NCBI RefSeq assembly: GCF_900091495.1
Contig: NZ_LT607413.1
Span: 620,001-684,000 of the forward strand
Reading direction: 5' to 3'
DNA: 64,000 nt
Origin: Micromonospora echinospora
GTDB lineage: Bacteria > Actinomycetota > Actinomycetes > Mycobacteriales > Micromonosporaceae
Each line of letters starts with the position of its first letter. Within the stretch, counting starts at the first letter, position 1. Positions 35,464 to 52,926 of this stretch are shown here, piece by piece. Both the position numbers and the translations under genes were made by a program. A model generated the notes under the pieces. That model did no database searches, was not told the DNA's origin, and was given only the letters and a program-made list of their open reading frames with translations.

Positions 35464-35509
35464 CACCGGGTCCGCCGGGTGGGCCGCCAGGCGCGGCCGG
35501 CGAGCGGGA

Positions 35510-37090
35510 TCAGACGTGGGCGCGGTCGAGGCCGTAGGTGAGCGCGTCGACCAGGGCGTGCCAGCTCGCCTCGACGACATTGGGGTGCACGCCGACGGTG
35601 GTCCAGTCCCGACCGGCACCGGTGGTCTCGACCAGGACCCGGGTGACCGCGCCGGTGCCCTGGCTCCCCTCCAGGATGCGGACCTTGTAGTCGGCCAGCC
35701 CGAAGTCGCGCAGCTCCGGGTAGTGCCGGGCCAGCCCGGCGCGCAGCGCCTCGTCCAGGGCGTTGACCGGACCGTTCCCCTCGGCGGTGGCGATCACCCG
35801 CTCCCCGCGTACCCGGATCTTCACGGTCGCCTCGGAGACCACCGCGCCGTCCTCCCGGTGCTCGACGATCACCCGGTACGACTCCAGGGTGAACGGCTTC
35901 GCCGGGGCGCGGTCCGGCAGCTCGGAGCGGACCAGCAACTCGAACGAGGCGTCCGCGGCCTCGAAGGACCAGCCGCCGGCTTCCAGTTCCTTGACCCGGT
36001 TGGTGACCCGGGAGAGCGTCTCCGGACGGCCGGCCAGGTCCAGACCCAGCTCACGACTCTTGAGCTCGATGCTGGCCCGGCCGGCCATCTCGGTGACCAG
36101 GATCCGCATGTCGTTCCCCACCACTGCGGGGTCCACGTGGTTGTAGAGCAGCGGATCCACCTTGATCGCGCTCGCGTGCAGCCCCGCCTTGTGGGCGAAG
36201 GCCGCGGCCCCGGCGTACGCCTGGTGGGTGTCGGGGGCGATGTTCGCGATCTCGGCGATGGCGTGCGAGACGCGCACCATCTGCTCGAGGCACCCGTCCG
36301 GTAGGACCGGGATCCCGAGCTTGAGCTGGAGGTTGGCGACGACGGCGAAGATGTCGGCGTTGCCGGGGCGTTCGCCGTAGCCGTTGGCGGTGCCCTGGAA
36401 GTGGCGGACCCCGGCCTCGACGGCGGCGATGGTGTTGGCGACCGCGCAGGCGGTGTCGTTCTGGCAGTGGATGCCGAGCCGCTCCGGTCCGACGCCGGTG
36501 CGGGCGGTCAGGTCGGCGATGGCGGCGGTCACCTGGGAGGGCAGCATGCCCCCGTTGGTGTCGCAGAGCACCATCACCTCGGCTCCGGCGTCGAGCGCCG
36601 TCTCCACCACCGCCGCCCCGTACGCCGGGTCGGCGCGGTAGCCGTCGAAGAAGTGCTCCCCGTCGACGAAGACCCGGCGTCCCTCCGCGACCAGGTGGGC
36701 CACCGTGTCCCGGATCATGGCCAGGTTCTCGGCCGGGGTGGTCCGCAGCGCCCGCTCGACGTGCCGCAGGTCCGCCTTGGCGACCAGCGCGATCGCCGGG
36801 GTCTCGGCGTCGAGCAGGGCGCGCACCTGCGGGTCGTCGGCGACCGCGACCCCGGCCTTGCGGGTGGCGCCGAACGCGACCAGCAGCGCATGACGCAGGT
36901 CGAGCTCGGTACGGGCCCGGCGGAAGAACTCGGTGTCCTTGGGCACCGCGCCCGGCCAGCCGCCCTCGATGAAGCCGACGCCGAACTCGTCGAGCAGCCG
37001 GGCCACGGCGAGCTTGTCGACCACGGAGTAGCTGATTCCCTCGCGCTGGGCACCGTCGCGCAACGTCGTGTCGTAGACCTGGTACGTCAT
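35510..37090 (-). CDS. cimA: (R)-citramalate synthase
   Basis: CimA condenses pyruvate and acetyl-CoA to citramalate, opening a threonine-independent route to isoleucine. The 526-residue protein has the HMGL-like TIM barrel (YDTTLRDGAQREGISYS, FIEGGWPG, HCQNDTACAVAN, GTANGYGERPGNAD). Its LeuA-type dimer and regulatory domain follows at about 385-526 (YKVRILEGSQGTGAVTRVL). The ATG at 37090 follows AAGG. The first-domain motifs favour citramalate synthase over 2-isopropylmalate synthase. A leader peptide, a hairpin and a terminator upstream point to attenuation by isoleucine/leucine supply. LeuC, LeuD and LeuB can carry the product onward. Confidence 0.93.
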   Translation of the reverse strand: MTYQVYDTTLRDGAQREGISYSVVDKLAVARLLDEFGVGFIEGGWPGAVPKDTEFFRRARTELDLRHALLVAFGATRKAGVAVADDPQVRALLDAETPAIALVAKADLRHVERALRTTPAENLAMIRDTVAHLVAEGRRVFVDGEHFFDGYRADPAYGAAVVETALDAGAEVMVLCDTNGGMLPSQVTAAIADLTARTGVGPERLGIHCQNDTACAVANTIAAVEAGVRHFQGTANGYGERPGNADIFAVVANLQLKLGIPVLPDGCLEQMVRVSHAIAEIANIAPDTHQAYAGAAAFAHKAGLHASAIKVDPLLYNHVDPAVVGNDMRILVTEMAGRASIELKSRELGLDLAGRPETLSRVTNRVKELEAGGWSFEAADASFELLVRSELPDRAPAKPFTLESYRVIVEHREDGAVVSEATVKIRVRGERVIATAEGNGPVNALDEALRAGLARHYPELRDFGLADYKVRILEGSQGTGAVTRVLVETTGAGRDWTTVGVHPNVVEASWHALVDALTYGLDRAHV

Positions 37091-37112
37091 GGGAGACCTT
37101 TCTGGAACCAAC

Positions 37113-37143
37113 AAAAAGACCCCCCGCGGGGTGCGGGAGGTCT
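37113..37143 (-). terminator. attenuator terminator in the cimA leader
   Basis: On the minus strand an 11-bp stem (37133-37143 with 37117-37127, one mismatch) with a five-base loop is followed by TTTTT. This is the classical intrinsic terminator form, rare in this GC-rich window, and it stands about 23 bases before the cimA start. Confidence 0.75.
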
Positions 37144-37172
37144 GCGCGCTCGGCGGAGGGTTGCCGGCGCGC
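37144..37172 (-). promoter_or_regulatory. pause hairpin of the cimA attenuator
   Basis: The stem GCGCGC-CGGC pairs with GCCG-GCGCGC across 37144-37172. It lies directly between the leader stop and the terminator, the place of a pause hairpin in amino acid attenuators. Confidence 0.6.
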
Positions 37173-37204
37173 TAGGTGCCAATAAGCAGGGCGGTGCTGG
37201 TCAC
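37172..37204 (-). CDS. cimA leader peptide VTSTALLIGT
   Basis: A ten-codon frame (GTG to TAG) just before the pause hairpin encodes two consecutive Leu codons and one Ile codon. CAGAGT lies seven bases before the GTG, so the RNA could start at it. A ribosome stalling at Leu-Leu-Ile would let the RNA refold and read through into cimA. This is a product-feedback leader by layout. Experimental support is unknown to me. Confidence 0.65.
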   Translation of the reverse strand: MTSTALLIGT

Positions 37205-37432
37205 GTTCCGTACTCTGCCACCCGCGGCCCGGATCTGGGAGGAGAAATCCACATCTCGGGACAACCGGTGGCGGAGGGTTGCGCTGGCGGACCGCAGGCC
37301 AACACGTCGCCGGAACACGCGATCGGTGATCGACTTCACAAGTAACCCGGCCGCCACCTGGGCGTTACGGGGTTGGGGCAATATCTGGAACCAGTCCAGT
37401 TACGGCCCCGTGCCACTCGTCAAGGAGGACCT

Positions 37433-37987
37433 GTGCTCACCGTCGGTGACAGCTTCCCGGAGTACGAACTCACCGCCTGCGTCTCCCTGGAGGCCGACAA
37501 GGCGTTCGAGACGATCCACCACAAGTCGCACCAGGGCCAGTGGCGGGTCGTCTTCTTCTGGCCGAAGGACTTCACCTTCATCTGTCCCACCGAGATCGCC
37601 GAGTTCGGCCGGCTCAACGGCGAGTTCGCCGACCGCGACGCCCAGGTCCTCGGCGTCTCCGTCGACAACGAGTTCGTCCACTACGCCTGGCGCAAGGACC
37701 ACCCGGATCTGCGGGAGCTGCCCTTCCCGATGCTCAGCGACATCAAGCGCGAGCTGACCGAGGCCTGCGGCGTGCTCGGCGAGGACGGCGTGGCCCAGCG
37801 GGCCACCTTCATCGTCGACCCGAACAACGAGATCCAGTTCGCCATGGTCACCGCCGGCTCGGTCGGCCGGAACGTCTCCGAGGTGCTGCGGGTGCTCGAC
37901 GCCCTCCAGACCGACGAGCTGTGCCCGTGCAACTGGAACAAGGGCGCCGACACCCTGGACGCCACCAAGCTGATGGCCGGGGCCTGA
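37433..37987 (+). CDS. ahpC: alkyl hydroperoxide reductase subunit C (peroxiredoxin)
   Basis: The 184-residue 2-Cys peroxiredoxin reduces hydroperoxides. The peroxidatic Cys is in FTFICPTEIAEFG near residue 48, and the C-terminal CPCNW holds two more cysteines including the resolving one. The actinobacterial AhpC is recharged by AhpD, here four bases away. GTG 37433 follows AAGGAGGA. No OxyR gene is adjacent. A perfect 15-bp hairpin terminator follows ahpD. Confidence 0.96.
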   Translation: MLTVGDSFPEYELTACVSLEADKAFETIHHKSHQGQWRVVFFWPKDFTFICPTEIAEFGRLNGEFADRDAQVLGVSVDNEFVHYAWRKDHPDLRELPFPMLSDIKRELTEACGVLGEDGVAQRATFIVDPNNEIQFAMVTAGSVGRNVSEVLRVLDALQTDELCPCNWNKGADTLDATKLMAGA

Positions 37988-37990
37988 CCG

Positions 37991-38521
37991 ATGGGCCTCG
38001 ACGCGATCAAGGCGGCTCTGCCGGAGTACGCCAAGGACATCAAGCTCAACCTCGGGTCCACCGTCGGCACCTCGACCCTGAGCCCGCTCCAGGCCTGGGG
38101 CACCGCGCTGGCCTGCGCGGTGGCCGCCCGTAACCCGGTGGTGCTGCGCGAGATCGCGGCCGAGGCGGCCGACCACCTCAAGCCGGAGGCGGTCGAGGCG
38201 GCCAAGGGCGCGGCCACGATCATGGCGATGAACAACGTCTACTACCGGTCCAAGCACCTGATCGGCGACGAGTCGTACGCCTCGATCCCGGCCCGGCTGC
38301 GGATGCAGATCATCGCGAGGCCCGGCGTGGACAAGGGCGACTTCGAGCTCTGGTGCCTGGCGGTGTCGGCGATCACCGGGTGCGGGGTGTGCCTGGAGTC
38401 GCACGAGAAGACCCTGCGCGGGGCCGGGTTCACCCGGGAGCAGGTGCACGAGGGGCTGCGGATCGCCGCCGTGGTGCACGCCGCCGCGGTGGCGCTGGAC
38501 GCCGAGGCCGCGCTGGGCTGA
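37991..38521 (+). CDS. ahpD: alkyl hydroperoxide reductase AhpD
   Basis: A 176-residue all-helical carboxymuconolactone decarboxylase-family protein. Its redox motif CGVCLESHEKTL holds the two cysteines that pass electrons to AhpC, and the nearby Glu and His activate them. It takes electrons from dihydrolipoamide in mycobacteria. It starts three bases after the ahpC stop, an obvious operon. It resists organic and peroxynitrite stress. Confidence 0.96.
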   Translation: MGLDAIKAALPEYAKDIKLNLGSTVGTSTLSPLQAWGTALACAVAARNPVVLREIAAEAADHLKPEAVEAAKGAATIMAMNNVYYRSKHLIGDESYASIPARLRMQIIARPGVDKGDFELWCLAVSAITGCGVCLESHEKTLRGAGFTREQVHEGLRIAAVVHAAAVALDAEAALG

Positions 38522-38543
38522 CGCCCTGCGTCCACCGGCACTC

Positions 38544-38580
38544 CGACCGGGGCCGTCCCACCGACGGACGGCCCCGGTCG
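38544..38580 (+). terminator. ahpCD terminator
   Basis: Perfect 15-bp stem (38544-38558 with 38566-38580), seven-base loop, followed by CGTCGTTTCC, 22 bases after the ahpD stop. Confidence 0.75.
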
Positions 38581-38763
38581 CGTCGTTTCCGGCGGCTCCC
38601 GCGACCGGGACGCCTCCGGCAAGCCGACTCCGCCGGTGCGCGGACCGGCGACTCCGGCCCCCCGGTACCGGCCGGCAGGTGTGCGACCGCGACCAGGGGG
38701 TACGAGGAGTCCTGACCGGACAGCATCCCCGATACGACGCAGTCGAGGCAGGAGGGCCGTGGA

Positions 38764-39219
38764 ATGGACAGGCTCGATCCGGGCGCGGCGCACGCCTCAC
38801 CGAAGCCGGTGACCGACGACGGGCAGGGCGCCTTCGCGGGCGGCGCGCCCGCCGGTGCCTTCGACCCCTGGCGCTACCGGGACGAGGCCGGGGTCACCGA
38901 CACCGACCTGACCGGCTACCACGTCAAGGCGACCGACGGGTCGATCGGGAAGATCGACGAGGCGAGTCACGACGTCAACGCCAGTTACCTGGTGGTGGAC
39001 ACCGGCCCCTGGATCTTCGGCCGGAAGGTGATGCTCCCGGCCGGCACGGTCAACCACGTCGACCACGATGTCCGCACGGTGTTCGTCGACCGGACCCGCG
39101 ACCAGGTCCGGGCCGCTCCCGAGTACGACGAGACCGACACCGACCCGGCGTACCGGGACCGGCTGGGCGGCTACTACGACGACACGTACGCGCCCGTGCC
39201 ACCGGGCACCGCCCGGTAG
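38764..39219 (+). CDS. PRC-barrel domain protein
   Basis: A 151-residue soluble protein. It has an acidic, disordered N-terminus (1-45), then a PRC barrel (VTDTDLTGYHVKATDGSIGKIDE to VFVDRT) and a short Asp/Tyr-rich end. PRC-barrel proteins of this type act in stress and envelope contexts in actinobacteria, but the function here is unknown. AGGAGGG precedes the ATG. Confidence 0.85.
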   Translation: MDRLDPGAAHASPKPVTDDGQGAFAGGAPAGAFDPWRYRDEAGVTDTDLTGYHVKATDGSIGKIDEASHDVNASYLVVDTGPWIFGRKVMLPAGTVNHVDHDVRTVFVDRTRDQVRAAPEYDETDTDPAYRDRLGGYYDDTYAPVPPGTAR

Positions 39220-39264
39220 GTGACCACGTCGTGACGGCCGGTGGGGTTCCGCCCCGCCGGCCGT

Positions 39265-39270
39265 TAGCGT
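39265..39270 (+). promoter_or_regulatory. -10 element of a leaderless promoter (phosphatase gene)
   Basis: TAGCGT, six bases before the GTG at 39277, with no Shine-Dalgarno sequence. Confidence 0.55.
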
Positions 39271-39276
39271 GTCGAG

Positions 39277-40017
39277 GTGGACACCCCTGGAGCGAATCGA
39301 CGAATCCCGTTCTCCGCGATGTTCAACTTCCGTGACGTCGGCGGCTACCGAGGCCACGACGGACGCACCGTACGGTGGGGGCGGCTCTACCGCTCCGACT
39401 CCCTGCACCGGGTCGACGAGACCGATCGGGCGGCGTTCGCCGCGCTCGGCGTCCGGACGGTGGTCGACCTGCGTCGACCGTCCGAGGTGGCCCGGGACGG
39501 CCGGGTGCCGGCGTACGACGGGCTCGCCTACCGCAACATCCACCCGGAACACCGGTCCTGGGCCGAGCAGATGTACGACCCGGCGACCAGCCTCGCCGGC
39601 TTCCTGGTCGACCGGTACGTCGCCCTGGCCACCACCGGCGCGGCCGGGCTGGCCGAGGCGGTCGGCCTGATCGCCGACGCCGAGAACGCCCCGGTGGTGG
39701 TGCACTGCGTGGCCGGCAAGGACCGCACCGGCATCGTCTGCGCGCTGACCCTGGCGTTGCTCGGGGTGAGCGACACGGACATCGCCGCCGACTACGCGCT
39801 GAGCACCGAGGCGTCGGCCCGGTTCAGCGCCTGGCTCGCGGCCAGCATGCCCGAGGCGGCGGATCCACCCGCGCCGTTCCTCGCCTCACCGGCCGAGGCG
39901 ATGCCGCTCTTCCTCGACGAGCTGCGCGACCGGCACGGGTCCGTCGAGGGGTACCTCCGCCACGCCGGGCTGGCCGACGCGCAGTTCGACGCTCTCCGGG
40001 CTCACCTGCTGGAGTGA
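39277..40017 (+). CDS. tyrosine-protein phosphatase, MptpB-like
   Basis: The 246-residue protein carries the phosphatase loop HCVAGKDRTGIVCAL near residue 147, with the catalytic Cys and Arg. The N-terminal NFRDVGGYRG is typical of the atypical dual-specificity/MptpB group, and the Lys-Asp pair after Cys marks phosphoinositide-capable members. It could dephosphorylate proteins or phosphoinositides. There is no signal peptide. The start codon is a GTG behind TAGCGT. Confidence 0.9.
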   Translation: MDTPGANRRIPFSAMFNFRDVGGYRGHDGRTVRWGRLYRSDSLHRVDETDRAAFAALGVRTVVDLRRPSEVARDGRVPAYDGLAYRNIHPEHRSWAEQMYDPATSLAGFLVDRYVALATTGAAGLAEAVGLIADAENAPVVVHCVAGKDRTGIVCALTLALLGVSDTDIAADYALSTEASARFSAWLAASMPEAADPPAPFLASPAEAMPLFLDELRDRHGSVEGYLRHAGLADAQFDALRAHLLE

Positions 40018-40106
40018 CCCGCCGGGTGGAGCCGCCCCCGGGGGCCCGCCCAGGACCGGAGGTGGCTCACGCGGTGACCGAGAACTGCCGACATGCTGAC
40101 TCCCTA

Positions 40107-40128
40107 TGACGCAAACGGTTCTGCGTCA
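40107..40128. repeat. inverted repeat after the phosphatase gene
   Basis: TGACGCA (40107-40113) and TGCGTCA (40122-40128) flank eight bases. It may be a weak terminator or a protein-binding site. Confidence 0.4.
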
Positions 40129-40219
40129 GCAAGATAGGTCACCATGGATGACGCCCGGTAGTCCGCCGCACCGGTCACGGAAAGTGAACAGAGCTGCTAC
40201 CGGCTGAAACAGCGACATC

Positions 40220-40255
40220 CCGGGGGTGATGTCCGATATCGGACATCACCCCCGG
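40220..40255. terminator. perfect 36-bp palindrome near the ilvE end
   Basis: Two 18-base halves (40220-40237, 40238-40255) are exact reverse complements with no spacer. It stands about 40 bases after the ilvE stop, so a terminator is the simplest reading. Its centre GTCCGATATCGGAC would also suit a dimeric DNA-binding protein. Confidence 0.6.
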
Positions 40256-40293
40256 CACGCCACAGCGGGCGGGACCGCGATCCCGCCGACGGG

Positions 40294-41391
40294 TCAGAGC
40301 ACCCGACGGACCCAGCCGTACGGGTCGGCGGCCACGCCGCGCTGGAGGTCGACGAGCTGCTGGCGCAGCCCCATGGTGACCCGGCCGGGCTCCCCCGCCC
40401 CGATGACGAACTCGCCGTCCGGGAAGCGGACGTGCCCGATCGGCGTGATCACGGCGGCCGTGCCACAGGCGAAGACCTCGCGCAGCCGCCCGCTCGCCGC
40501 GTCGGCCTGCCAGTCGGCGAAGCTGACCGACCGCTCCTGCACGGTCAGGCCGGCCTCGGTGGCCAGCGTCAGCACCGACTCGCGGGTGATGCCCGGCAGT
40601 ATGGTGCCGGTCAGCGGCGGGGTGACCAGCGTGCCGTCGTCGTAGACGAAGAAGACGTTCATGCCGCCCAGTTCGTCGACGAAGCGCCGCTCGACGGCGT
40701 CCAGGAAGACCACCTGCTCACAGCCGTGCTCGATCGCCTCGGCCTGCGCGGCCAGCGAGGCCGCGTAGTTCCCGCCGCACTTCGCCGCGCCGGTGCCACC
40801 CGGCGCCGCCCGGGTGTAGTCCGGGGAGATCCAGACCTTGACCGGCTTGACCCCGCCGGAGAAGTACGCCCCGACCGGGGCGGCGATCAGGACGTAGAGG
40901 TATTCCCGGGCCGGCCGGACCCCGAGGAAGACCTCACTGGCGAACATGAACGGCCGCAGGTAGAGGCTGCCGTCCTCACCGGACGGGATCCACTCCCGGT
41001 CGATCTCGATCAGCCGGTGCAGCGAGTCGAGGAACGCCTCCGGCGGCAGCGGGGGCATGGCCAGCCGCTCGGCCGAGGTGACGAACCGGTCGGCGTTGGC
41101 CTCCGGCCGGAAGAGCGTCACCCCACCGTCGGCGGTGCGGTACGCCTTGAGCCCCTCGAAGATCTCCTGCGCGTAGTGCAGTACGGCACTGGCCGGGTCC
41201 ATCGGGATCGGCGCGCGGGCCTCGACGCGGGCGTCGTACCAGCCCTTGTCCTCCGCGTAGCGGATCGTGACCATGTGGTCGGTGAAGACCCGGCCGAACC
41301 CGGGGTCGACCAGCAGGGCGGCCCGGTCGGCGGCGGATACGGGCGCGGGGTTCCGACGGATCTCGAATTCGAGCTTGTCACCACCGCTCAT
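40294..41391 (-). CDS. ilvE: branched-chain amino acid aminotransferase
   Basis: A 365-residue fold-type IV PLP aminotransferase that performs the last step of Val, Leu and Ile synthesis and the first of their breakdown. The cofactor lysine is in GTGAAKCGGNYAAS near residue 205; IFEGLKAYR, LYLRPFMFASE, ELGGMN and EVFACGTAAVI are typical. ATG 41391 follows GGAGG by eight bases; the in-frame ATG at 41433 has no such site. It forms part of the leu/ilv-rich region but has its own transcript. Confidence 0.96.
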   Translation of the reverse strand: MSGGDKLEFEIRRNPAPVSAADRAALLVDPGFGRVFTDHMVTIRYAEDKGWYDARVEARAPIPMDPASAVLHYAQEIFEGLKAYRTADGGVTLFRPEANADRFVTSAERLAMPPLPPEAFLDSLHRLIEIDREWIPSGEDGSLYLRPFMFASEVFLGVRPAREYLYVLIAAPVGAYFSGGVKPVKVWISPDYTRAAPGGTGAAKCGGNYAASLAAQAEAIEHGCEQVVFLDAVERRFVDELGGMNVFFVYDDGTLVTPPLTGTILPGITRESVLTLATEAGLTVQERSVSFADWQADAASGRLREVFACGTAAVITPIGHVRFPDGEFVIGAGEPGRVTMGLRQQLVDLQRGVAADPYGWVRRVL

Positions 41392-41552
41392 CGCGCTGAC
41401 CTCCCTGGGACGGCACGGCATGCCGGAGCGCATGCCGAAGGACTGGTGCAGTGGAACTTACCCCGAACGGCCGTTGCGCGGGAGGGCCGGCCAACGGGCC
41501 GGCGCTACGTACCGTGACGCCGGGCCGTCCGGGTGGCGGGCTGAGCGGGCGG

Positions 41553-42587
41553 TCAGCCCGCGGCGTACTCGGCCAGACGGTCGCCGACCTCGTCGGTGCG
41601 CAGCGGTACGCCCGGCGCCCGGTTCGCCAGCTCGCTGGCGACCGCCTCGGTCACCCGGTTGGCGGCGTCGGAGTGGCCGAGCTGCTCCAGCAGCAGCGCG
41701 GCGGAGAGCACGGCGGCCACCGGGTCGGCGAGGCCCTTGCCGGCGATGTCCGGGGCCGAGCCGTGCACCGGTTCGAACATCGAGGGGTAGCGCCCCTCGG
41801 GGTTGATGCAGCCGCTGGCGGCCAGCCCGATGCCGCCGGTGACGGCAGCGGCGATGTCGGTCAGGATGTCGCCGAAGAGGTTGTCGGTGACCACCACGTC
41901 GTACCGCTGCGGCTGGGTGACCAGGAACATCGCGGCGGCGTCCACGTGCTGGTACTCGGTGGTCACGTCGGGGTGCTCGGCGGCGACCGCCGCGAAGGCG
42001 CGGGCCCAGAGCGACCCGGCGTGGGTGAGCACGTTGGTCTTGTGCACCAGGGTCACCTTGCGGCGCTCCCGGCGCCCCGCCCGGGCGAACGCGTCCCGGA
42101 TCACCCGCTCCACGCCGTGCCGGGTGTTCAGGCTCTCCTCGGTGGCCACCTCGGCGGGGGTGTCCCGGTGCAGCGAGCCGCCCGCGCCGGCGTAGAGCCC
42201 CTCGGTGCCCTCCCGGACCACCACCAGGTCGACCTCGCCCGGCTTGACGGTGGCGAGCGGGCCGGTCACGCCGGGCCAGAGCCGGGACGGGCGGAGGTTG
42301 ACGTACTGGTCGAAGGCGAAACGGAGCTTGAGCAGCAGGCCGCGCTCCAGCACGCCCGGCGGGACGGTCGGATCGCCGACCGCGCCGAGCAGGATCGCGT
42401 CGTGCCCGGCCAGCTCGGTCAGGACCGAGTCCGGCAGCACCTCGCCGGTGCGGTGGTAGCGGGCGGCGCCGAGGTCGTACTCGGTGGCCTCCACGACGCC
42501 GGGAAGGACGGCGTCGACGACCTTGCGGGCCTGCGCGACCACCTCGGGTCCGATCCCGTCCCCGGCCACCACCGCGATCCGCGCCAC
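41553..42587 (-). CDS. leuB: 3-isopropylmalate dehydrogenase
   Basis: LeuB oxidatively decarboxylates 3-isopropylmalate with NAD. The 344-residue protein has [16 protein letters not shown], the substrate block [27 protein letters not shown] and the NAD/metal motif [21 protein letters not shown] with [14 protein letters not shown]. It also accepts 3-methylmalate in the citramalate route, known for the family and relevant since cimA is near. GTG 42587 follows GAGGAGTGG. Confidence 0.96.
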
Positions 42588-42807
42588 GTTCCACTCCTCA
42601 GCTCACCGTTGAACTCGTACGTTACGACGCCGTCCCGCCTCCCGGTACGTTGCGCTCATATTATGGGAATCTCGGATGCACAGCAGCTTTCCAGGTGACA
42701 TTCATGATCCGGTCAACTCGACCACCTAGGGTGGGGTTCGCACGGGTCACGGGGGCCCGTGACGGAGGGTCGGCGACGGCGCGGCACCATCCGGAGGGAG
42801 CAGGCAC

Positions 42808-43647
42808 ATGCGGATCGAGGAACAGACCCGGAGCCGGTGGGTGGACCAGCCCGCCCACGTCAGCCGTCGTCCCGACCTGCGGCTCGGTGGTCGCAGCCTG
42901 CTGGATCGCTGGGGTGGGGTGGCCACCGACCGGCTCACCGTCACGCACACCGTGCGCACCTCCACCGCCGAGTACACCCTCGTGCTGAACGCCCCGGAGT
43001 GGCTCGGACGGCGCGGGGTCGGCGAGGCGCTGCGCGACGCCGTCGCCGAACTACGGGCCGTCGACCTGACCTACGGCCCCGGCCGACCGCACAGCCTCGT
43101 CTCCCGGCTGCGCCGGGGCGAGATCAGCCCCGAGTCGTACGCCCCCCTGGCCGACCTGGTCGACCGCTGCGCCGCGATGCGGGCGGCCACCGACGGCTGG
43201 TTCGACGCCTGGGCGGTGCCCGGCGGCTTCGACCCGGGGGGCCTGCTCGGCGGATGGGCGGTGGAGCGGGCCGCCGCCCGGCTGCGGGCCTCCGGTGTGG
43301 ACGACTACGCCGTGGTCGCCGGCGCGGACCTGGTCGTCCGGGGGCACGCCCCGCACGGCGGGCCGTGGCGGGTCGCCGTGCTCCACCCGGACGGCGACCG
43401 TGCCCCGCTGGTGCTGGAGATGACGGCCGGCGCGATCGGCACCTCCGGGGTCAGCGGACGGCGTGACCACGTGGTGGACCCGCACACCGGGGAACCGGCC
43501 CGCCAGATGACCGCGGCCACCGTGGTGGGGCCGGACCTGTCCGTCGCCGACGCCTACGCCACCGCCCTCTACGCCGCCGGTCCGGCGGGACTGGACTGGT
43601 TCGGCGACGGATCGAACTACCGGCCGCTCTTCGCCCACCGGCGCTGA
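42808..43647 (+). CDS. ApbE-like FAD:protein FMN transferase
   Basis: The 279-residue protein has the family order of motifs: LDLTYGPGRPHSLVSRLRRG, DGWFDAW, GGWAVERAA, GAIGTSGVSGRRDHVVDPHTGEPA, then VADAYATALYAAG with the metal ligand Asp. It probably attaches FMN to a protein or handles FAD. It lacks a signal peptide and lipobox, so it is cytosolic. Flavoprotein partners such as Rnf/Nqr are not seen here. A 12-bp hairpin follows. Confidence 0.85.
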   Translation: MRIEEQTRSRWVDQPAHVSRRPDLRLGGRSLLDRWGGVATDRLTVTHTVRTSTAEYTLVLNAPEWLGRRGVGEALRDAVAELRAVDLTYGPGRPHSLVSRLRRGEISPESYAPLADLVDRCAAMRAATDGWFDAWAVPGGFDPGGLLGGWAVERAAARLRASGVDDYAVVAGADLVVRGHAPHGGPWRVAVLHPDGDRAPLVLEMTAGAIGTSGVSGRRDHVVDPHTGEPARQMTAATVVGPDLSVADAYATALYAAGPAGLDWFGDGSNYRPLFAHRR

Positions 43648-43693
43648 CCCCACAGGGGGCGCGGACCGGCTGGCGAGTGGGGACGACCGCGAT

Positions 43694-43729
43694 CGGCTCC
43701 CACGGGCGCGGCAACGACCGTGGGAGCCG
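43694..43729 (+). terminator. terminator after the ApbE-like gene
   Basis: A perfect 12-bp stem (43694-43705 with 43718-43729) with a 12-base loop, 47 bases after the stop. The rest of the intergenic region up to 43984 shows CACGCT seven bases before the next GTG (43985) and nothing else I can name. Confidence 0.65.
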
Positions 43730-43984
43730 GTCAGCGACGAGTGCGCGTGGCTCGCGCATCCGAGGGGTACGGAACCGACCGGCCGGACGCCGGACACCGC
43801 CACCCGAAGACGGGTCGACACCGTGAGTTCGGTCAGTAACCGCACGGATACGCTAGCGAACCGTCGTAGGCCGCCGCAAGGGTCTCCACAACCGACCGTC
43901 CTGGTATGACGCTGCGGGTTCCTTTCCGGACGGTCCACGGGGTCCGGTGACGCGCCGGGTCGACCGGATGGCACGCTGTCCGCC

Positions 43985-44389
43985 GTGAGTTTCGATCTGA
44001 GCGTGTGGGCCCTACCGGAAGGGGCCTCCCCCGCGGACGTGCGGGCGGCCGTGCAACGGTGCCGACAGGGACAGCACGTCGACAGCTATCCCGACCCCCG
44101 GGTGGTCGCCTTCTACCGGGCGATCACCGCCAGCTACCCGGACCGTCCCGGGCCGGGATCGCCGTGGGAGGTGACGCCGTTGCACGCCGCCGCTGACCAC
44201 GTGGCGATGAGCCTCTATCCGACCTGTGAGGACCAGGTGCTCCTGGACATCGAGCGGCTCGCCGCCGAGAACGGCCTGATGCTCTTCGACCCCCAGGACG
44301 GTTCCGTCTACCCGCCACCGACGGCTGCCCCCGCCCCCGCCCACCACGCGACCTTTCCCGTCCCCCACTCCACCGCCCACGCCCGCTAG
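43985..44389 (+). CDS. conserved protein of unknown function
   Basis: A 134-residue soluble protein starting MSFDLSVWALPEG, an opening shared by a widespread group of small actinobacterial proteins. Conserved features are FYRAITASYPD, DHVAMSLYPTCED and LMLFDPQDGSVYPPP. The last 25 residues are a Pro/Ala/His tail. The function is unknown; some relatives occur near toxin loci as possible immunity proteins, but nothing here supports that. The start is a GTG, and the mRNA may be leaderless. Confidence 0.75.
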   Translation: MSFDLSVWALPEGASPADVRAAVQRCRQGQHVDSYPDPRVVAFYRAITASYPDRPGPGSPWEVTPLHAAADHVAMSLYPTCEDQVLLDIERLAAENGLMLFDPQDGSVYPPPTAAPAPAHHATFPVPHSTAHAR

Positions 44390-44503
44390 GACCGGTCAGC
44401 GGCGACGGTCCCCTCGTCCGGCGGACCGCCTCGAACCCGGGGCCAGCGTGCCGGCGACGGCCGGACGACGAGCACCGGACGACGAACGCGAGCCCGACAG
44501 CGA

Positions 44504-44537
44504 GCAGGGGCCCGGCCACCACTGGCCGGGCCCCTGC
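44504..44537. terminator. bidirectional terminator beside serA
   Basis: A perfect 15-bp stem (44504-44518 with 44523-44537) with a four-base loop, 22 bases after the serA stop and also behind the convergent gene. Confidence 0.8.
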
Positions 44538-44558
44538 GTCGTGTGCGGGGACGGGGAT

Positions 44559-46154
44559 CTACTCGTCGCGCAGGTCGGCGGCGGAGGCGGCGGTCGCGCC
44601 GATCGACTCGGCGGCCGAGGTGAGCAGGTCCGCGCCGAGCGCCTGGTCGACGGTGAGCGTCATCAGCGTCTCGCCACCGGCCTCGCGACGGGCCACCTGC
44701 ATGGCCGCGATGTTGATGCCGGCCTCGCCGAGCAGCGTGCCGACGGTGCCGACCACGCCGGGACGGTCGACGTAGCGGAGGAAGAGCAGGATGCCCTCCG
44801 CCCCGATCTCCACGTCGAAGCCGTCGACCTCGGTCAGCTTCAGGACCTCCCGGCCGGGAGCGCCGACGACGGTGCCCGAGACGCTGACCGTCCGGCCGTC
44901 GGGCAGCGCGCCCCGGACGGAGACCAGGCTCGGCTGGTCCGGCTCGGGCTGGCTGGTCAGCGTCACCTCGACGCCGCGCTCGGCGGCGAGGTGCGGGGCG
45001 TTGACGTAGGTGACCTGCTCCTCGACGACCGAGCTGAACAGCCCCTTGGTCGCGGCGAGCTTGAGCACCGAGACGTCGTGGTTGGCGATCTCGCCGCGCA
45101 CCTCGACGGTGACGCTGGCGGCCACCCCGCCGGCCACGGCGGTGAAGGCCCGACCGAGCTTCTCGGCGAGCGGCAGCAGCGGCCGGACGTCCTCGGCGAC
45201 CACGCCGCCGGCCTGGACGTTCACCGCGTCCGGCACGAACTCGCCCTGGAGGGCGAGCTTGACGCTCTTCGCCACGGCGAGACCGGCCTTGTCCTGTGCC
45301 TCGTGGGTGGAGGCGCCCAGGTGCGGGGTGGCCACCACGTTGTCGAAGGCGAACAGCGGCGAAGAGGTGCAGGGCTCCTTGGCGTACACGTCGACACCGG
45401 CGCCGGCGACCCGGCCCTCGGCGATGGCGTCGGCGAGCGCCTGCTCGTCGACCAGGCCGCCCCGGGCGGCGTTGACGATCCGCACGCCCGGCTTGACGAT
45501 CGCCAGTTCCTTCTCGCCGATCAGGCCGACCGTCTCCGGGGTCTTCGGCAGGTGGATCGAGATGAAGTCGCTCTCCCGGAGCAGCTCCTCCAGCCCGACC
45601 AGACGGACCCCGAGCTGGGCCGCGCGGGCCGGCTGGATGTAGGGGTCGTACGCGATCAGCCGGGTGCCGAAGGCGGCGATCCGCTGGGCGAAGAGCACGC
45701 CGATCCGGCCGAGGCCGACCACGCCGACGGTCTTGCCCTGGATCTCGACGCCGGTGTACTTCGACCGCTTCCACTCCCCCGCCTTGAGCGCCGCGCTGGC
45801 GCTGGCGGTGTTCCGCGCCACGGCGAGGAGCAGGGCCACGGCCTGCTCGGCGGCGGAGACGATGTTCGAGGTGGGCGCGTTGACCACCATCACGCCCCGG
45901 GCGGTGGCGGCGGGCACCTCGACGTTGTCCAGACCGACGCCCGCGCGGGCGACCACCTTGAGGCGGGGCGCGGCGGCGACGGCCTCCGCGTCGATCTGGG
46001 TGGCACTGCGCACGATCACCGCGTCGGCCTCGGCGAGGGCGGAGAGCAGCGCCGGACGGTCGGTGCCGTCGACGTGGCGTACGTCGAAGTCGTGGGCGAG
46101 CACCTCGATGGCGGCGGGAGCGAGTTCTTCGGCGATCAGTACGACAGGATTCAT
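44559..46154 (-). CDS. serA: D-3-phosphoglycerate dehydrogenase
   Basis: SerA oxidises 3-phosphoglycerate with NAD to start serine synthesis. The 531-residue protein has the NAD-binding GVVGLGRIGVLFAQR near residue 150, the catalytic NAARGGLVDE and the PHLGAST His. After that come an ASB-type intervening domain (about 320-450) and a C-terminal ACT domain (450-531, RYVDRPGVVGTVGTLLGEAGINIA). This is the long type I form seen in mycobacteria, inhibited by serine through ACT/ASB. A CGAGGA stands before the ATG. Two similar direct repeats lie about 90-120 bases upstream. Confidence 0.96.
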   Translation of the reverse strand: MNPVVLIAEELAPAAIEVLAHDFDVRHVDGTDRPALLSALAEADAVIVRSATQIDAEAVAAAPRLKVVARAGVGLDNVEVPAATARGVMVVNAPTSNIVSAAEQAVALLLAVARNTASASAALKAGEWKRSKYTGVEIQGKTVGVVGLGRIGVLFAQRIAAFGTRLIAYDPYIQPARAAQLGVRLVGLEELLRESDFISIHLPKTPETVGLIGEKELAIVKPGVRIVNAARGGLVDEQALADAIAEGRVAGAGVDVYAKEPCTSSPLFAFDNVVATPHLGASTHEAQDKAGLAVAKSVKLALQGEFVPDAVNVQAGGVVAEDVRPLLPLAEKLGRAFTAVAGGVAASVTVEVRGEIANHDVSVLKLAATKGLFSSVVEEQVTYVNAPHLAAERGVEVTLTSQPEPDQPSLVSVRGALPDGRTVSVSGTVVGAPGREVLKLTEVDGFDVEIGAEGILLFLRYVDRPGVVGTVGTLLGEAGINIAAMQVARREAGGETLMTLTVDQALGADLLTSAAESIGATAASAADLRDE

Positions 46155-46241
46155 CGGTCCTCGTAGATATCGTCAGAGCGGGTCGGCGGCGTCGACTCCG
46201 ACGCCACGCTGCGCCCTGTGCTTGACCGGGCCATGGGCCGT

Positions 46242-46295
46242 GCGGGTGCCCGGAAGCACCTACCGCGGTGGCGCGCGGGTGCCGGGAACACCTAC
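46242..46295. repeat. two direct repeats upstream of serA
   Basis: About 22 bases each, 33 bases start to start, about 90 to 120 bases before the serA ATG. The second can also fold with its flank (CGCGGGT ... ACCCGCG). Such spacing, about three helical turns, is compatible with a repressor acting on serA. Confidence 0.45.
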
Positions 46296-46422
46296 CCGCG
46301 ATGGTAGGCCGCTGCCCACCACCGCTGTCCCAAGGACCGGGGTGAGGGCCCTCACACACCATCCGGACACCGGACCGGGCTCGATCCATCCTCCAGATCC
46401 GGCCCGACCCCGGAAACGCGCA

Positions 46423-46467
46423 GGTGGCGTACCCCGACGCCACAGAAGGGCATCGGGGTACGCCACC
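46423..46467 (-). terminator. ilvC terminator
   Basis: A perfect 15-bp stem (46423-46437 with 46453-46467) about 160 bases after the ilvC stop on the ilvC strand, ending the ilvBNC transcript. Confidence 0.65.
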
Positions 46468-46625
46468 GCACGGAACGACACCGCCAGCGAACGGAACGGG
46501 CCGTCGACGGGGCTGGCCGGCGTGCCGGAACACGACCGCGGGCCGCGGCCGTTCGCCGTGATCAGTCTCTCCCGGTGATCAGCCTCTCCCGGTCACGGGC
46601 GATCCGGCACCGGTCGTCAGGATGG

Positions 46626-48279
<1,654 letters not shown>

Positions 48280-48361
48280 GCCACGGCCTCGCTTCGTTCG
48301 GTCGCGCCGACGCGCGACAGGGGACTACGCCTGCTGGTTCGTTCGCTCCGTCCGCCCATGG

Positions 48362-50218
48362 TCAGACGTCGTCCTCGTCGAAGACCGGGCGGACGCCGCG
48401 GGCGAACATGATCTCGTCGTTGCTGGTGCCGGCGGCGACCATCGGCCAGACCATCGCGTCCTTGCCGACCACGAAGTCGATCACCACCGGCGCGTCGTCG
48501 ATCGCCATCGCGGCCTCGATGGTCTTGTCCACGTCGGCGGCGTTCTCGCAGCGCAGCCCGACGCAGCCGAGCGCCTCGGCCAGCTTGACGAAGTCCGGGA
48601 TGCGGTGCTTGTGGGTGCCCAGCTCGGTGTTGGAGTACCGCTCCCCGTAGAAGAGGGTCTGCCACTGCCGGACCATGCCCAGGTTGCCGTTGTTGATGAT
48701 GGCGATCTTGACCGGGATGCCCTCCAGGGCACAGGTGGCCAGTTCCTGGTTGGTCATCTGGAAGCAGCCGTCGCCGTCCACCGCCCAGACCACCGTGTCC
48801 GGCTGGCCGACCTTCGCGCCCATCGCGGCCGGGACGGCGTAGCCCATCGTGCCGGCGCCGCCGGAGTTCAGCCAGGTGTACGGCTTCTCGTACGAGATGA
48901 ACTGCGCCGCCCACATCTGGTGCTGCCCGACCCCGGCCACGTAGATCGCGTCCGGGCCGACGATCTCACCGAGCCGTTTGATCACGTACTGCGGGGCGAG
49001 GGTGCCGTCGGCGGGCTCGTCGTAGCCGAGCGGGTAACGCCCACGCAGCTCGTCGAGCTGCGCCCACCAGTCGGTCAGCTCGGCCGTCCGGCCGGCGGCG
49101 TGCTCGACGGTGACCGCGCCGATCAGCTCGTCGATCACGTGCCGGGCGTCACCGACGATCGGCACGTCCGCCGCCCGGTTCTTGCCGATCTCGGCCGGGT
49201 CGATGTCGGCGTGCACCACGGCCGCGCCGGGGGCGAAGGAGTCCAGCTGGCCGGTCACCCGGTCGTCGAAGCGCGCCCCCAGCGCCACGATCAGGTCCGA
49301 CTTCTGCAACGCGTACACCGCGGCGACCGTGCCGTGCATGCCGGGCATGCCCAGGTGCTGCTGGTGCGAGTCGGGGAACGCCCCGCGCGCCATCAGCGTG
49401 GTGACCACCGGGATGCCGGTCAGCTCGGCGAGCCGGCGCAGCCCCTCGGTGGCCCCGGCCTTGAGCACGCCGCCGCCGACGTAGAGCACCGGCCGGCGGG
49501 CGCCGGTCATCAGCCGGGCCGCCTCCCGGATCTGCTTGCCGTGCGGGTGCAGGGTCGGCCGGTAGCCGGGCAGGTCGAGGGTGGGCGGCCAGGTGAAGGT
49601 GGTCTGCGCCTGGAGGACGTCCTTGGGAATGTCGACCAGCACCGGCCCGGGACGCCCGGTGGAGGCCAGGTGGAACGCCTCGGCCAGCACCCGCGGGATC
49701 TCCTCGGGCGTCTGCACCAGGAAGTTGTGCTTGGTGATCGGCAGCGTGATGCCCTGGATGTCCGCCTCCTGGAAGGCGTCCGTGCCGATCGCCGGGCGCG
49801 CCACCTGACCGGTGATCGCCACCATCGGCACCGAGTCCATGTACGCGTCGGCGATCGGGGTGACCAGGTTCGTCGCGCCCGGGCCGGAGGTGGCCATGCA
49901 GACCCCGACCCGGCCGGTGGCCTGCGCGTACCCGGTCGCGGCGTGTCCCGCGCCCTGCTCGTGCCGGACCAGGATGTGCCGGACCCGGGAGTCGTAGAGC
50001 GGGTCGTACGCCGGCAGGATCGCGCCCCCGGGGATGCCGAAGACCACGTCGACGCCGAGCGCCTCGAGCGAGCGCACCAGCGAACCGGCGCCGGAGACCT
50101 GGAGCGGGGTGGCCGGGGCGGGTACCGCCGGGACGGCGGCACGGTCGGCGGCGGGCTCGGCGGTCGTCCGGGCTCGCCGGGTGGAGTGGGCGAGGGTCTC
50201 TGGCGTGGGTCTCGTCAT
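48362..50218 (-). CDS. ilvB: acetolactate synthase large (catalytic) subunit
   Basis: The 618-residue ThDP enzyme joins pyruvate with pyruvate or 2-ketobutyrate. The catalytic glutamate is in [16 protein letters not shown], and [16 protein letters not shown] ... [12 protein letters not shown] is the ThDP/Mg motif. [20 protein letters not shown] and [10 protein letters not shown] are also typical. The first 45 residues are a disordered Ala/Pro-rich extension before [14 protein letters not shown] 50218 is used. A leader peptide, hairpin and terminator lie between 50304 and 50417, so attenuation is expected, as known for ilvBNC in Corynebacterium glutamicum. Confidence 0.97.
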
Positions 50219-50303
50219 GACGGTTCTGGCCTTCGGCTCGGGTGAGTGGCTCGTCAAGCAGTGCAACGCGGGCGGGGCCCGCCCCGATGGGTCCAACGGC
50301 AAT

Positions 50304-50334
50304 AAAAACGGCCCTCGTGCAGACGCACGGGGCC
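50304..50334 (-). terminator. attenuator terminator before ilvB
   Basis: On the minus strand a stem (50334-50325 with 50320-50310, one bulged base, four-base loop) is followed by GTTTTTATT. The U-run makes it a textbook intrinsic terminator, about 86 bases before the ilvB start. Confidence 0.8.
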
Positions 50335-50364
50335 AGCGCACTCTCACGAGGAGGAGAGTGCGCT
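50335..50364 (-). promoter_or_regulatory. pause hairpin of the ilvB attenuator
   Basis: Perfect 11-bp stem (50335-50345 with 50354-50364), eight-base loop, overlapping the stop codon of the leader peptide and touching the terminator. Confidence 0.65.
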
Positions 50365-50417
50365 CAGGTAAGTACTCGCGGGAAGCGGAACGACGACATG
50401 GGGACAGCCTGACGCAT
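50364..50417 (-). CDS. ilvB leader peptide [17 protein letters not shown]
   Basis: A 17-codon frame ends in Val-Leu-Thr-stop right at the pause hairpin. Codons GTA and CTT, both rare in this genome, are used for Val and Leu, so the ribosome should be sensitive to their charging. An internal ATG at 50399 gives the shorter version [11 protein letters not shown]. No strong ribosome binding site is visible. It is placed as expected for an attenuator, but the branched-chain codon content is modest. Confidence 0.5.
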
Positions 50418-50451
50418 CTCAAGCGATGAGTCAACTGATCCCACATGTTGG

Positions 50452-52926
50452 TCAACGACGTGCCGCACCACCGTGCACGTCCCGTCCGGCACCGGGCCTG
50501 ACCTGCGTCGATACCGCGTCCTCGACGACCAGGTCGGACCCGTCCTCCCGCTCGCCCCGCACCGACTCCGGGGCGGGGCGCAGCGCAGGCACCGAGGGCG
50601 GGGCGGGCGGCCCGCCCTCCGCCGGGTCGCCGTCGGCGACCAGGGCCGGTCGCGGGCCCACCGAGGTCGCGGCGTCGAGCATCGCCTCCAGGTGTTCCGC
50701 CGGTACGCCCCAGCCGAAGAGCGCCCCCTGCCCGAACCGGCAGCCGGCGGCGACCACCGCGGCCAGCTCGGTCGGCGAGGTGACCCCCTCGGCGATCACC
50801 TCCAACCCGAGCTGGTGGCCCAGCCGCATCACGATGTCGACCATCGGGGCGAACGGCGGCCCGTCCCGGTCCACCGGACGGACGGGCTCGTGCTCGGCGA
50901 CCAGACTGTGGTCGATCTTGAGGATGTCGATCGGCAGCCGGCGGAGCTGCCCCAGGGAGGAGTACCCGGCCCCGAAGTCGTCCAGGGCGATCCGCACCCC
51001 GGTGCGGCGCAGCGCGGTCAACCGCCGGATCAGCTCGTCGACGTCGGTCGCCACGGTGTGCTCGGTCACCTCCAGCACCAGCCGCTGCGGCGGCACCCGG
51101 TGCGCCCGCAGCGCCTCGGCGACCTGGCCGACGTACTCCTCGGCGTGCAGTTCCCGGGGCGAGACGTTCACCGACACCCAGACGTCGTGGCCGTCGGCCA
51201 GCCAGCGGGAGAGCTGGAGGCAGGCCTGGTCGAGCACCCACGCGCCGAGCGCGGCGATCATGCCGCACTCCTCGGCGAGCGGGATGAACTCGTCCGGCCG
51301 GACGTTGCCCAGCTCCGGGTGACGCCAGCGCAGGAGCGCCTCCGCCCCGACCGGACGCACCGACGGCAGGGAGGCCACCGGCTGGAACACCAGCCGTAGC
51401 TCGCCGCGCCCGATCGCCCCGCGCAGTTCGTGCTCCACGGTCGTCCGGCGGCGCAGCATCCGTTCGTAGGCGGCGTCGTACCGTTCGACCCGGTTCTTGC
51501 CCTGCTGCTTGGCGTGGCGCAGGGCCAGGTCGGCGTGGCGCAGCAGCACCTCGACATCCGACTCGTCGACGCCCACCGGGCCGCTCCCGGCCGGTCGGAC
51601 CACCGGGTGGGACACGTCCGCGCCGTCGGGGTCGCCCTGTCCGGCGACCCCGACGCTCACCGAGAGGAAGACCGGTCCGTCCGGCTGCTGGTACGCCTCG
51701 CCGAGCGCGCGCAGCAACTCCTGGGCGAGCCGTTCGGCGTCCTCCGGACCACGGTGGGTCAACACCGCGAACTCGTCTCCGCCGAGGCGGGCAGGAAGGT
51801 CGTCGGGGCCCTGCCGGGCGCGCAGTCGCCGCCCCACCTCGGCGAGCACCGCATCGCCCACGTCGTGTCCCCGCATGTCGTTGACGTGCTTGAAGCCGTC
51901 CAGGTCGAGGCCGAGCAGCACCACCGGCTCACGGCCGGCGACGCCGGACGCCAGCGCCCGCAGCAGCCCCCGCCGGTTCGCCAGCCCGGTGAGCGGGTCG
52001 GTGTGGGCCAACTCACGGAAGTGCGCCTCCCGCTCGGCCAGCCGGGCAGCGTACCCGCGCATGTCGTGCAGGGTGAGGTACTGCCGGGTCACCAGCGCGA
52101 ACCCCTCGATGCTGCCGGCGGTGATGGCGAAGGCGTCGAAGCGGCCGTCCTGGAGGAGGTGGTACGCCGCCGAGGCGGCCATGGCGACCATCGGGATGAA
52201 GGCGTACTCGCTGTCCCGGCGGATCAGGTCGGCGTCGACCTGGCCGGGCGGCTTGGTGGTGTGCACGGCGAGCCCGGCGGAGAGCAGCCCGACGGCGAGG
52301 ACCGCCCCGCCGGCGGAGGTCAGCCACGCAAGACCCTCGAAGAGTCCGGCCGCCACCCCCAGCCCCCCGCAGACCATGTTGGTGACGCCGCAGCAGAGCC
52401 CGGCGAGTCGGGTGCGGGGGCGGGGGGCCCGGGCGGCGACGACCGCGTTCAGCCCGGCGGCGAGGGCCGCGCTGACCGTGACGAGCAGGAGCGGCGGACA
52501 GGACAGGTGGGAGGTCTCACCGAGCAGCCGGGTGGGCTCGGAGAACAGCACCCAGCCGACGAACCAGAGCGCCGCCGCGACGCTCACCCCGTCGAGCAGC
52601 AACCGGACCGCGCCGGACGGCGACCCGACGACCCCGGGCATCCGGAGCAGCCCGGCGCACCCGAGGAAGCCGCTGACCGCGATGCCGATCGCCACCGCGG
52701 TGGCCCACCGTGTTCGCTCTCCCTGGTCGTGTCCGGCGACGGCGACGGCGGCCAGCCCGGTGGCCAGACTGAGTGTCGCGACCGCAGCGCCGGCGGCCAG
52801 CAGCAGGTGCGCCGGACGGTATCCGCCGCTCCGGTGCCGGACCGAGGCGACCAGGAGACCGGTGGCCACCGTCGCCCCGAGCCCGCTCAGTACCGCCACT
52901 ACGATCATGACCGGGGAGAACTGCAC
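50452..52926 (-). CDS. membrane GGDEF-EAL protein (diguanylate cyclase/phosphodiesterase)
   Basis: The 824-residue protein has about seven or eight N-terminal membrane helices (1-230) and a short helical linker. A GGDEF domain (about 320-490) has an intact LGGDEFAVL, and an EAL domain (about 515-760) has intact [10 protein letters not shown], the [10 protein letters not shown] loop and EVIAEGV. Both active sites look complete, so it could make or destroy cyclic-di-GMP. The GTG at 52926 is chosen as the first start after the last upstream stop region; ATG 52908 is possible. The C-terminal 65 residues are disordered. It ends about 35 bases before the ilvB leader peptide. Confidence 0.88.

Follow-up and report, generated by a model that had tools for sequence, protein, structure and literature searches.

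In the classical attenuators of the enterobacterial trp, his, ilv, and leu operons, the position of a ribosome on a leader peptide decides the fate of an intrinsic terminator, and the stems involved are mutually exclusive helices with a strand shared between them. Leaders of a comparable kind are on record from the Actinobacteria. Seliverstov 2005 (PMC1262725; cited here, like PMC10272879 and PMC4824070, from excerpts) predicts leader attenuators for trp, leuS, and others and finds leaders with terminators at ilvB, where it calls the mode of regulation unclear. As excerpted, those ilvB leaders resemble both ilvL of Streptomyces lividans (PMC8079986) and the leader described below in combining a short open reading frame (ORF) that contains branched-chain codons with hairpins and a U-rich stretch; the S. 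lividans ilvL is reported to be leaderless, as we propose for the leader described below (PMC8079986). In Corynebacterium ilvB-II (excerpts of PMC10272879), an upstream ORF with Ile, Leu, and Val codons spans most of a stem P1, a second stem P2 is the terminator, and pairing between the P1 loop and P2a is proposed as the antiterminator. The LEU element of actinobacterial leuA likewise has a leucine leader ORF and precedes a pathway gene whose product shares an enzyme family with CimA, but in the excerpted account it forms a pseudoknot, the base of which holds the ribosome-binding site, and has no obvious terminator (PMC1262725).

Here we describe a leader upstream of cimA, the gene for (R)-citramalate synthase, in a 64,000-nucleotide stretch of Micromonospora echinospora DNA (the window). 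We consider it likely that this leader is a ribosome-mediated attenuator that senses isoleucyl-tRNA and permits read-through when isoleucine is short; from its sequence, it appears to work like the attenuators above, minus the shared-strand feature of the classical kind. Like the enterobacterial leaders, it has codons for the pathway product near the end of its ORF and an intrinsic terminator before the gene; unlike them, it has no strand common to both of its stems and no conserved antiterminator that draws on a strand of the terminator. Two differences set it apart from ilvB-II as described in excerpts of PMC10272879: its ORF mostly ends at the edge of P1 instead of spanning it, and no loop-P2a pairing is conserved.

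The original prediction, made from the window alone, knew of no published attenuator of citramalate synthase, and we found no account of a leader peptide or attenuator for cimA or citramalate in the open-licence literature. A search of the same literature for SCO5529, which we take to be the cimA tag of Streptomyces coelicolor, returned only work on Lon protease. No cimA leader is seen in the excerpts of Seliverstov 2005 (PMC1262725), none is among the eight leader peptides of the S. lividans survey, from whose text the words cimA and citramalate are absent (PMC8079986), and cimA goes unmentioned in Naville and Gautheret 2010.

RESULTS AND DISCUSSION

Anatomy of the cimA leader

The features of the locus are collected in Table 1. 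The leader ORF, the hairpin, the terminator, the U-run, and cimA lie exactly, base for base, where the original prediction had placed them, and its naming of the downstream gene proved correct (601 bits against a TIGR00977 cut-off of 450). Folding of the 92-nt leader RNA yields −49.3 kcal/mol compared with −32.0 ± 3.0 kcal/mol for dinucleotide shuffles (z −5.7), and none of 200 shuffles folded as well. A further claim, that U-tailed terminators are otherwise almost absent from the window, was checked over positions 35500-51500. A terminator scan of this region found three terminator-like sites (2.7 were expected), the cimA leader site accounting for two, and overlooked an ilvB leader at 50300-50399.

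Table 1. Coordinates of the cimA leader and of the ilvB leader within the window
Feature	Position	Strand	Sequence or basis
-10-like element CAGAGT, TG just before	37212..37217	-	7 nt 5' of leader start codon; sequence
Leader ORF VTSTALLIGT, stop TAG	37172..37204	-	GTG ACC AGC ACC GCC CTG CTT ATT GGC ACC TAG
Putative sensor codons of the window leader	CTT 37184..37186; ATT 37181..37183	-	sequence
Hairpin P1, 10 bp, 5' arm from G of stop codon, flush with P2	37144..37172	-	
Hairpin P2, intrinsic terminator stem, 11 bp	37117..37143	-	
Terminator U-run	37113..37117	-	sequence, terminator scan
AGAAAGG, probable cimA ribosome-binding site	37097..37103	-	by position only
cimA, encoding an (R)-citramalate synthase that has the LeuA allosteric domain	35510..37090 (ATG at 37090)	-	TIGR00977; PF00682, PF08502
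ilvB leader ORF	50364..50399	-	same kind of leader, same window
P1 of ilvB leader, flush with its P2	50335..50364	-	
P2 and T-run of ilvB leader	50304..50334	-	

The mRNA probably starts at, or within one base of, the leader GTG and would thus be leaderless. An xAxxxT hexamer stands 6 to 9 nt 5' of the start codon in 166 of 172 leaders, a count that must be read with the fact that our parse of the leaders demanded such a hexamer at 5 to 9 nt. Among these 166 hexamers the spacing is 7 nt in 112, the first base is C in 141, and a TG extension is present in 154, the latter two figures coming from a parse that preferred C or T first and TG.

Conservation and spread

All 151 of the genus genomes searched contain cimA, as do, by a cimA match, 147 of 150 family genomes. 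We compared 50 loci from the genus (the window itself, the 29 loci that scored best after it, and a further 20 that include the most divergent) with 40 loci from 38 other genera of the family, and the leader, P1, and P2 are present at every one of the 50, window counted, and of the 40. These 90 family loci were found by protein homology, and the element itself was therefore no criterion of their selection. The original claim of an attenuator-type leader for cimA is strongly supported.

An RNA model of the leader, R1, matched one place in the source genome, which was cimA. In a sample of the order, R1 matched at an E value of 0.01 or better in 134 of 200 genomes, ilvB leaders included, and cimA is found in 155 of the 200; at least 106 of the 150 cimA genes listed have an R1 match 15 to 149 nt upstream on the same strand. 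We read 20 of the 44 cimA genes lacking a listed match. Fourteen of these follow a leuB-like frame (by eye), mostly at a short gap that is longer in L383 and L388; four have neither a leader nor a leuB-like frame; and L390 and L391 possess the same kind of leader, absent among the matches listed, with one unlisted match in the L390 genome. At these 14 loci (L374-L385, L387, and L388), read by eye, cimA sits behind the leuB-like frame and the leader is missing, as if lost when the gene joined that operon. R1 also matched in 132 of 197 genomes of a class sample and in 40 of 149 of a phylum sample; some weak matches cover a single place on either strand and probably represent chance palindromes.

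A DNA pattern composed of the end of P1 plus P2 recovered at least 120 stretches in named genomes. Eighty of these loci, from genera that include Streptomyces, Kitasatospora, Pseudonocardia, Lentzea, and Actinoplanes, were inspected for a CimA motif, which occurs within 420 nt in 68. The motif is too strict and misses real CimA frames: at least eight of the other 12 loci are CimA by eye, and three others run off the end of the fetched DNA. For the analyses that follow, 10 of a set of 60 loci were dropped, three for want of a recognised P2 start and seven for want of a CimA motif within 330 nt. Those seven comprise two loci before ilvB, one before ilvA, L174 (cimA by position), L203, L218, and L226. 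L141, off-centre at a contig end, was also dropped. The resulting set holds 172 cimA leaders (90 from the family and 82 from outside it), of which 166 were parsed; measurements were taken at 165 loci, leaving out the six unparsed leaders and L063.

Two abutting stems that covary

The original prediction had called for an alignment of the regions upstream of cimA in relatives; in two such alignments both stems covary, and the isoleucine codons are kept in the parsed leaders. In alignment A1, of 48 family sequences, 12 of 21 pairs vary on both sides (4.9 in shuffled alignments) with 29 two-sided compensatory cells (12.3 shuffled), none of 500 shuffles reaches the observed pairs or cells, and 89.5% of cells are paired; the inner part of P1 is misaligned (80% of P1 cells paired). 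One control was adverse: when the partners are displaced by +1, two-sided cells number 45 against the 29 observed, with only 43% of cells pairing. Alignment A2 comprises 71 sequences from outside the family, aligned anew. Here 13 pairs change on both sides (6.1 shuffled), with 103 two-sided cells (17.9 shuffled) and again none of 500 shuffles reaching pairs or cells; slid partners pair in 37 to 62% of cells compared with 94.7% and give at most 18 two-sided cells. The layout of A2 is not independent of A1, as its members were found with a model made from A1, but its compensations are. With the element kept at all 90 family loci and both stems covarying, chance is excluded. Four basal P1 pairs (GCGC/GCGC, A2 columns 14-17 and 51-54) are invariant in all 71 sequences, and higher pairs often compensate; on these basal pairs the covariation is consequently silent.

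P1 and P2 abut. Of the 165 measured loci, 152 have no nucleotide between the stems and 13 have a single one; in the family set, which was collected through protein homology instead of an RNA model, the spacing is 0 nt at 80 of 88 loci and 1 nt at the other 8. No nucleotide is common to both stems, and they fold together at equilibrium: mean P2 pairing is 0.985 with P1 free and 0.973 with the P1 5' arm masked, and at one locus it falls to 0.022 once that arm is masked.

If the leader were a classical attenuator, the G-rich 3' arm of P2 would be captured on starvation by RNA further upstream, for example by the pyrimidine-rich loop of P1. Some figures lean that way. In the window, nine positions of pairing are possible between GCGGGGGGU and the P1 loop with its neighbours (ACCCUCCGC); at 81 of 165 loci it is the P1 loop that offers the P2 3' arm its best partner, and at 131 the best partner upstream pairs at −12 kcal/mol or lower; and an analogous pairing of loop and P2a is drawn for Corynebacterium ilvB-II (excerpts of PMC10272879). 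Shuffled sequence, however, does as well. Across the 165 loci, pairing of the P1 loop to P2 comes to −6.55 kcal/mol compared with −6.21 for shuffles, that of the P2 3' arm with its best partner in the whole leader to −14.25 compared with −14.11 (P2 itself, −19.7), and that of the P2 5' arm with its best upstream partner to −5.5 compared with −6.46. The P1 loop, moreover, ranges from 3 to 16 nt and is not C-rich in several genera. We therefore reject conserved pairing of the P1 loop with P2, whether as a pseudoknot or as an antiterminator, and regard classical attenuation as improbable. The description of the leader as a complete classical attenuator fails with it: the two stems lack a common strand and fold together, and neither arm of P2 has a conserved alternative partner.

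Several other structural readings were also set aside. A three-way junction of GGCAGC in the leader with GTTGC behind the U-run, seen in some folds, would exist only in read-through RNA. A SAM-IV-like reading of GGCAACCCTCC in the P1 loop has no Rfam match at the gathering threshold, and the loop sequence is unconserved. The weak Rfam matches ar14, Guanidine-III, and ClpQY_promoter are below gathering and were taken as chance. The T-boxes of ileS answer to isoleucyl-tRNA, and in this they resemble the proposed cimA leader. A T-box reading of TTGGCACC nevertheless found no T-box match, whether in the window at the gathering threshold or in 36950-37480 at E values up to 10, and the cimA leader, which would be translated, differs in this as well from the T-box leaders of actinobacterial ileS (excerpts of PMC1262725).

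A proposed ribosome-gated stem

The stop codon has a nearly fixed place relative to the stems. It starts within 4 nt of the P1 5' edge in 134 of 165 loci and inside P1 in 30, and the distance from its first base to P2 has a median of 32 nt (27 to 37 nt in 141 of 165; 21 to 60 nt overall). The last Ile codon ends 5 to 8 nt 5' of P1 in 151 of 165. A ribosome footprint reaches 9 nt beyond the A site; under this assumed footprint, a ribosome at the stop codon masks at least half of the P1 5' arm in 164 of 165 loci, whereas one with the first Ile codon in its A site masks at most 20% of that arm in 163.

We infer the sign of the response, the leaderless start, and the steric step of the following scheme. 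RNA polymerase would start at the leader GTG, and the leader would be translated from the 5' end of the RNA. With isoleucine plentiful, the ribosome would reach the stop at the 5' edge of P1 and cover the P1 5' arm; P1 being blocked by the terminating ribosome, P2 would fold freely and transcription would stop at the U-run. When isoleucine is short, the ribosome would halt a few codons earlier, at the Ile codons, and P1 would fold at once. With the 3' base of P1 abutting P2 and no spacer between them, P2 could not close its lowest pairs inside the exit channel of the polymerase, and transcription would read into cimA.

Steric exclusion is proposed because a rise of cimA on isoleucine shortage demands that P1 hinder P2, and the only conserved relation that we found between the stems is their contact at the base. 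Taken by itself, the step in which P1 sterically blocks P2 is one on which we are about evenly divided. Equilibrium pairing gives no sign that P1 hinders P2, and stacking of P1 on P2 could even help P2. GC-rich structure before a terminator is advised against in excerpts of PMC4824070, where it can inhibit the hairpin. In Escherichia coli a terminator regains full strength some 30 bp behind a stop codon, and nearer ones are repressed to varying degree (excerpts of PMC4824070); since our median of 32 nt is near this figure, P2 should mostly, if perhaps not wholly, escape disturbance by a ribosome at the stop. At the 47 of 165 loci where the stop is nearer than 30 nt to P2, that ribosome might itself disturb P2.

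The original prediction had read P1 as a pause hairpin, and its coordinates for the hairpin stand. On such a reading P1 would keep ribosome and polymerase in step, and regulation would arise from how closely the ribosome follows. The 3' base of P1 does lie about 11 nt before the P2 loop, and hairpin-stabilised pauses occur at this distance. Terminator efficiency changes when ribosome and polymerase are coupled (excerpts of PMC4824070), and with the stop a median of 32 nt before P2, some effect of coupling is possible. A pause alone, however, yields no read-through state under starvation, and a ribosome held at the Ile codons, further from P2, would favour termination just when isoleucine is short. 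We find this role unlikely, and P1 is better read as an isoleucine-starvation stem than as a mere pause hairpin.

Isoleucine codons in the leader

We parsed each leader from a start codon with an xAxxxT hexamer 5 to 9 nt upstream, preferring C or T first and TG and then the shortest peptide; Ile played no part in this rule. Ile is nevertheless present in 165 of the 166 parsed leaders, and in the exception, L063, a wrong ORF was parsed and Ile codons are visible by eye. An Ile-Ile pair occurs in 145 of 166 (43 of 50 in the genus, 35 of 39 in the rest of the family, and 67 of 77 beyond it). The Ile codons of these leaders (n = 341) are ATT in 246 cases, ATC in 94, and ATA in one, whereas ATT accounts for none of the 458 Ile codons in 30 cimA genes of the genus and for one of 66 over the cimA, ilvB, and ilvE regions of the window. 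That isoleucine is the amino acid this leader would sense follows from the pair, mostly written in a codon absent from those cimA genes.

In most relatives both of these codons are Ile, as a rule ATT ATT; the window has CTT ATT (Leu-Ile) and so keeps one Ile of the pair. The same Leu-Ile is found at four of the seven exceptions in the genus, L001 (which is the window), L015, L027, and L033; the rest have Ile-Leu (L014 and L025) or a single Ile (L044). In two loci from other genera of the family, L067 and L055, the pair is likewise reduced to one Ile. The second Leu codon of the window, CTT, is, by comparison with these leaders, a local variant.

The original prediction had proposed a Leu-Leu-Ile sensor, which would amount to sensing of leucine or of branched-chain amino acids in general. 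Leu is common before Ile-Ile (29 of 43 leaders in the genus, 31 of 35 in the rest of the family, and 30 of 67 beyond it), and the window reads CTG CTT ATT. Elsewhere, however, that residue is V, M, R, A, S, T, or another, while Ile is kept in 165 of 166, so that the isoleucine part of the proposal holds and the leucine part does not; broader sensing strikes us as quite unlikely. An unregulated upstream terminator preceded by a chance ORF is highly improbable, given that rare-form Ile codons and the position of the stop are kept and that both stems covary. One published result points against isoleucine sensing by codons: as told in excerpts of PMC1262725, candidate codons of the S. coelicolor ilvB leader were changed and regulation was unaffected, which would count against codon sensing here if it is valid for the architecture of the cimA leader.

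The same architecture before other genes

R1, although built on cimA leaders, also finds ilvB leaders. Among the 44 listed matches of the order sample that are unlinked to cimA, 28 lie 4.6 to 26.6 kb from cimA on the same contig. Sixteen order loci were fetched: 14 precede ilvB (13 assigned by reading frame, and L137 from a shifted frame together with the leader), one precedes leuS, and one is cimA itself. In these 14 ilvB leaders, found with the cimA model, and in the window's own, the spacing of P1 and P2 is 0 to 1 nt (15 of 15), a flush layout that we computed here and that is not described in the publications on ilvB leaders as far as the excerpts of PMC1262725 and PMC8079986 extend. The ilvB leader of the window (Table 1) was not listed in the original prediction; just 5' of it, within 50300-50448 on the minus strand, are a -35-like hexamer TTGACT and the box ACATGTGGGAT.

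The codons differ with the gene: ilvB leaders carry mainly Leu and Val codons, and cimA leaders carry Ile-Ile. Over the last six codons, 117 cimA leaders average 1.68 Ile, 0.52 Leu, and 0.32 Val, compared with 0.68 Ile, 1.47 Leu, and 1.37 Val in 19 ilvB leaders (19 of 21 loci, at least four wrong stops or parses included). Leu codons occur in the leaders before leuS (L129) and leuA (L354), one locus each, and inside the class a leader with one Ile codon precedes ilvA, the gene for threonine ammonia-lyase (L373). Of 15 R1 matches read outside the class, nine were assigned to a gene and none was identified as cimA: five precede ilvB, one leuA, and one leuB. The other two of the nine precede isocitrate lyase and prephenate dehydratase (L358 and L361), genes that do not fit branched-chain sensing; their scores are weak and may be chance. 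At L370 and L372, a leader with Ile-Ile, P1, and P2 stands before a region without a cimA-sized reading frame.

We entertain, short of favouring it, the idea that Actinobacteria share one modular chassis in which a ribosome-gated P1 sterically blocks an abutting P2 at the exit channel of the polymerase, alternative base pairing playing no part, and the leader codons retarget the device, with Ile for cimA and ilvA, Leu and Val for ilvB, and Leu for leuS and leuA. Were this correct, it would offer a new view of the branched-chain leaders of the phylum, such as that of ilvB.

Pathway context and neighbouring sequences

The source genome also encodes a threonine ammonia-lyase that scores above its cut-off, and CimA is therefore probably a second route to 2-ketobutyrate. 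If our reading of the leader is right, the entry enzyme of the threonine-independent isoleucine route is under translational sensing of isoleucine across much of a class of industrially important bacteria. The leaders would then constitute a large natural set for testing attenuation without competing helices, and the leader could be a practical site for engineering precursor supply.

Upstream of cimA, two minus-strand frames (37400-38800 and 38797-39705) have no NCBIfam or Pfam family match. An ATGTGGA-type box lies at 37232-37254 on the minus strand of the window; in relatives it stands 40 to 75 nt 5' of the leader start, and it occurs at 48 of 50 genus loci. A similar box, ATGTGGGAT, is found upstream of ilvB, and these boxes are possibly sites for a regulator common to cimA and ilvB. 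In some genera the box resembles the palindrome TGTGGGA-N6-TTCCACA (L076).
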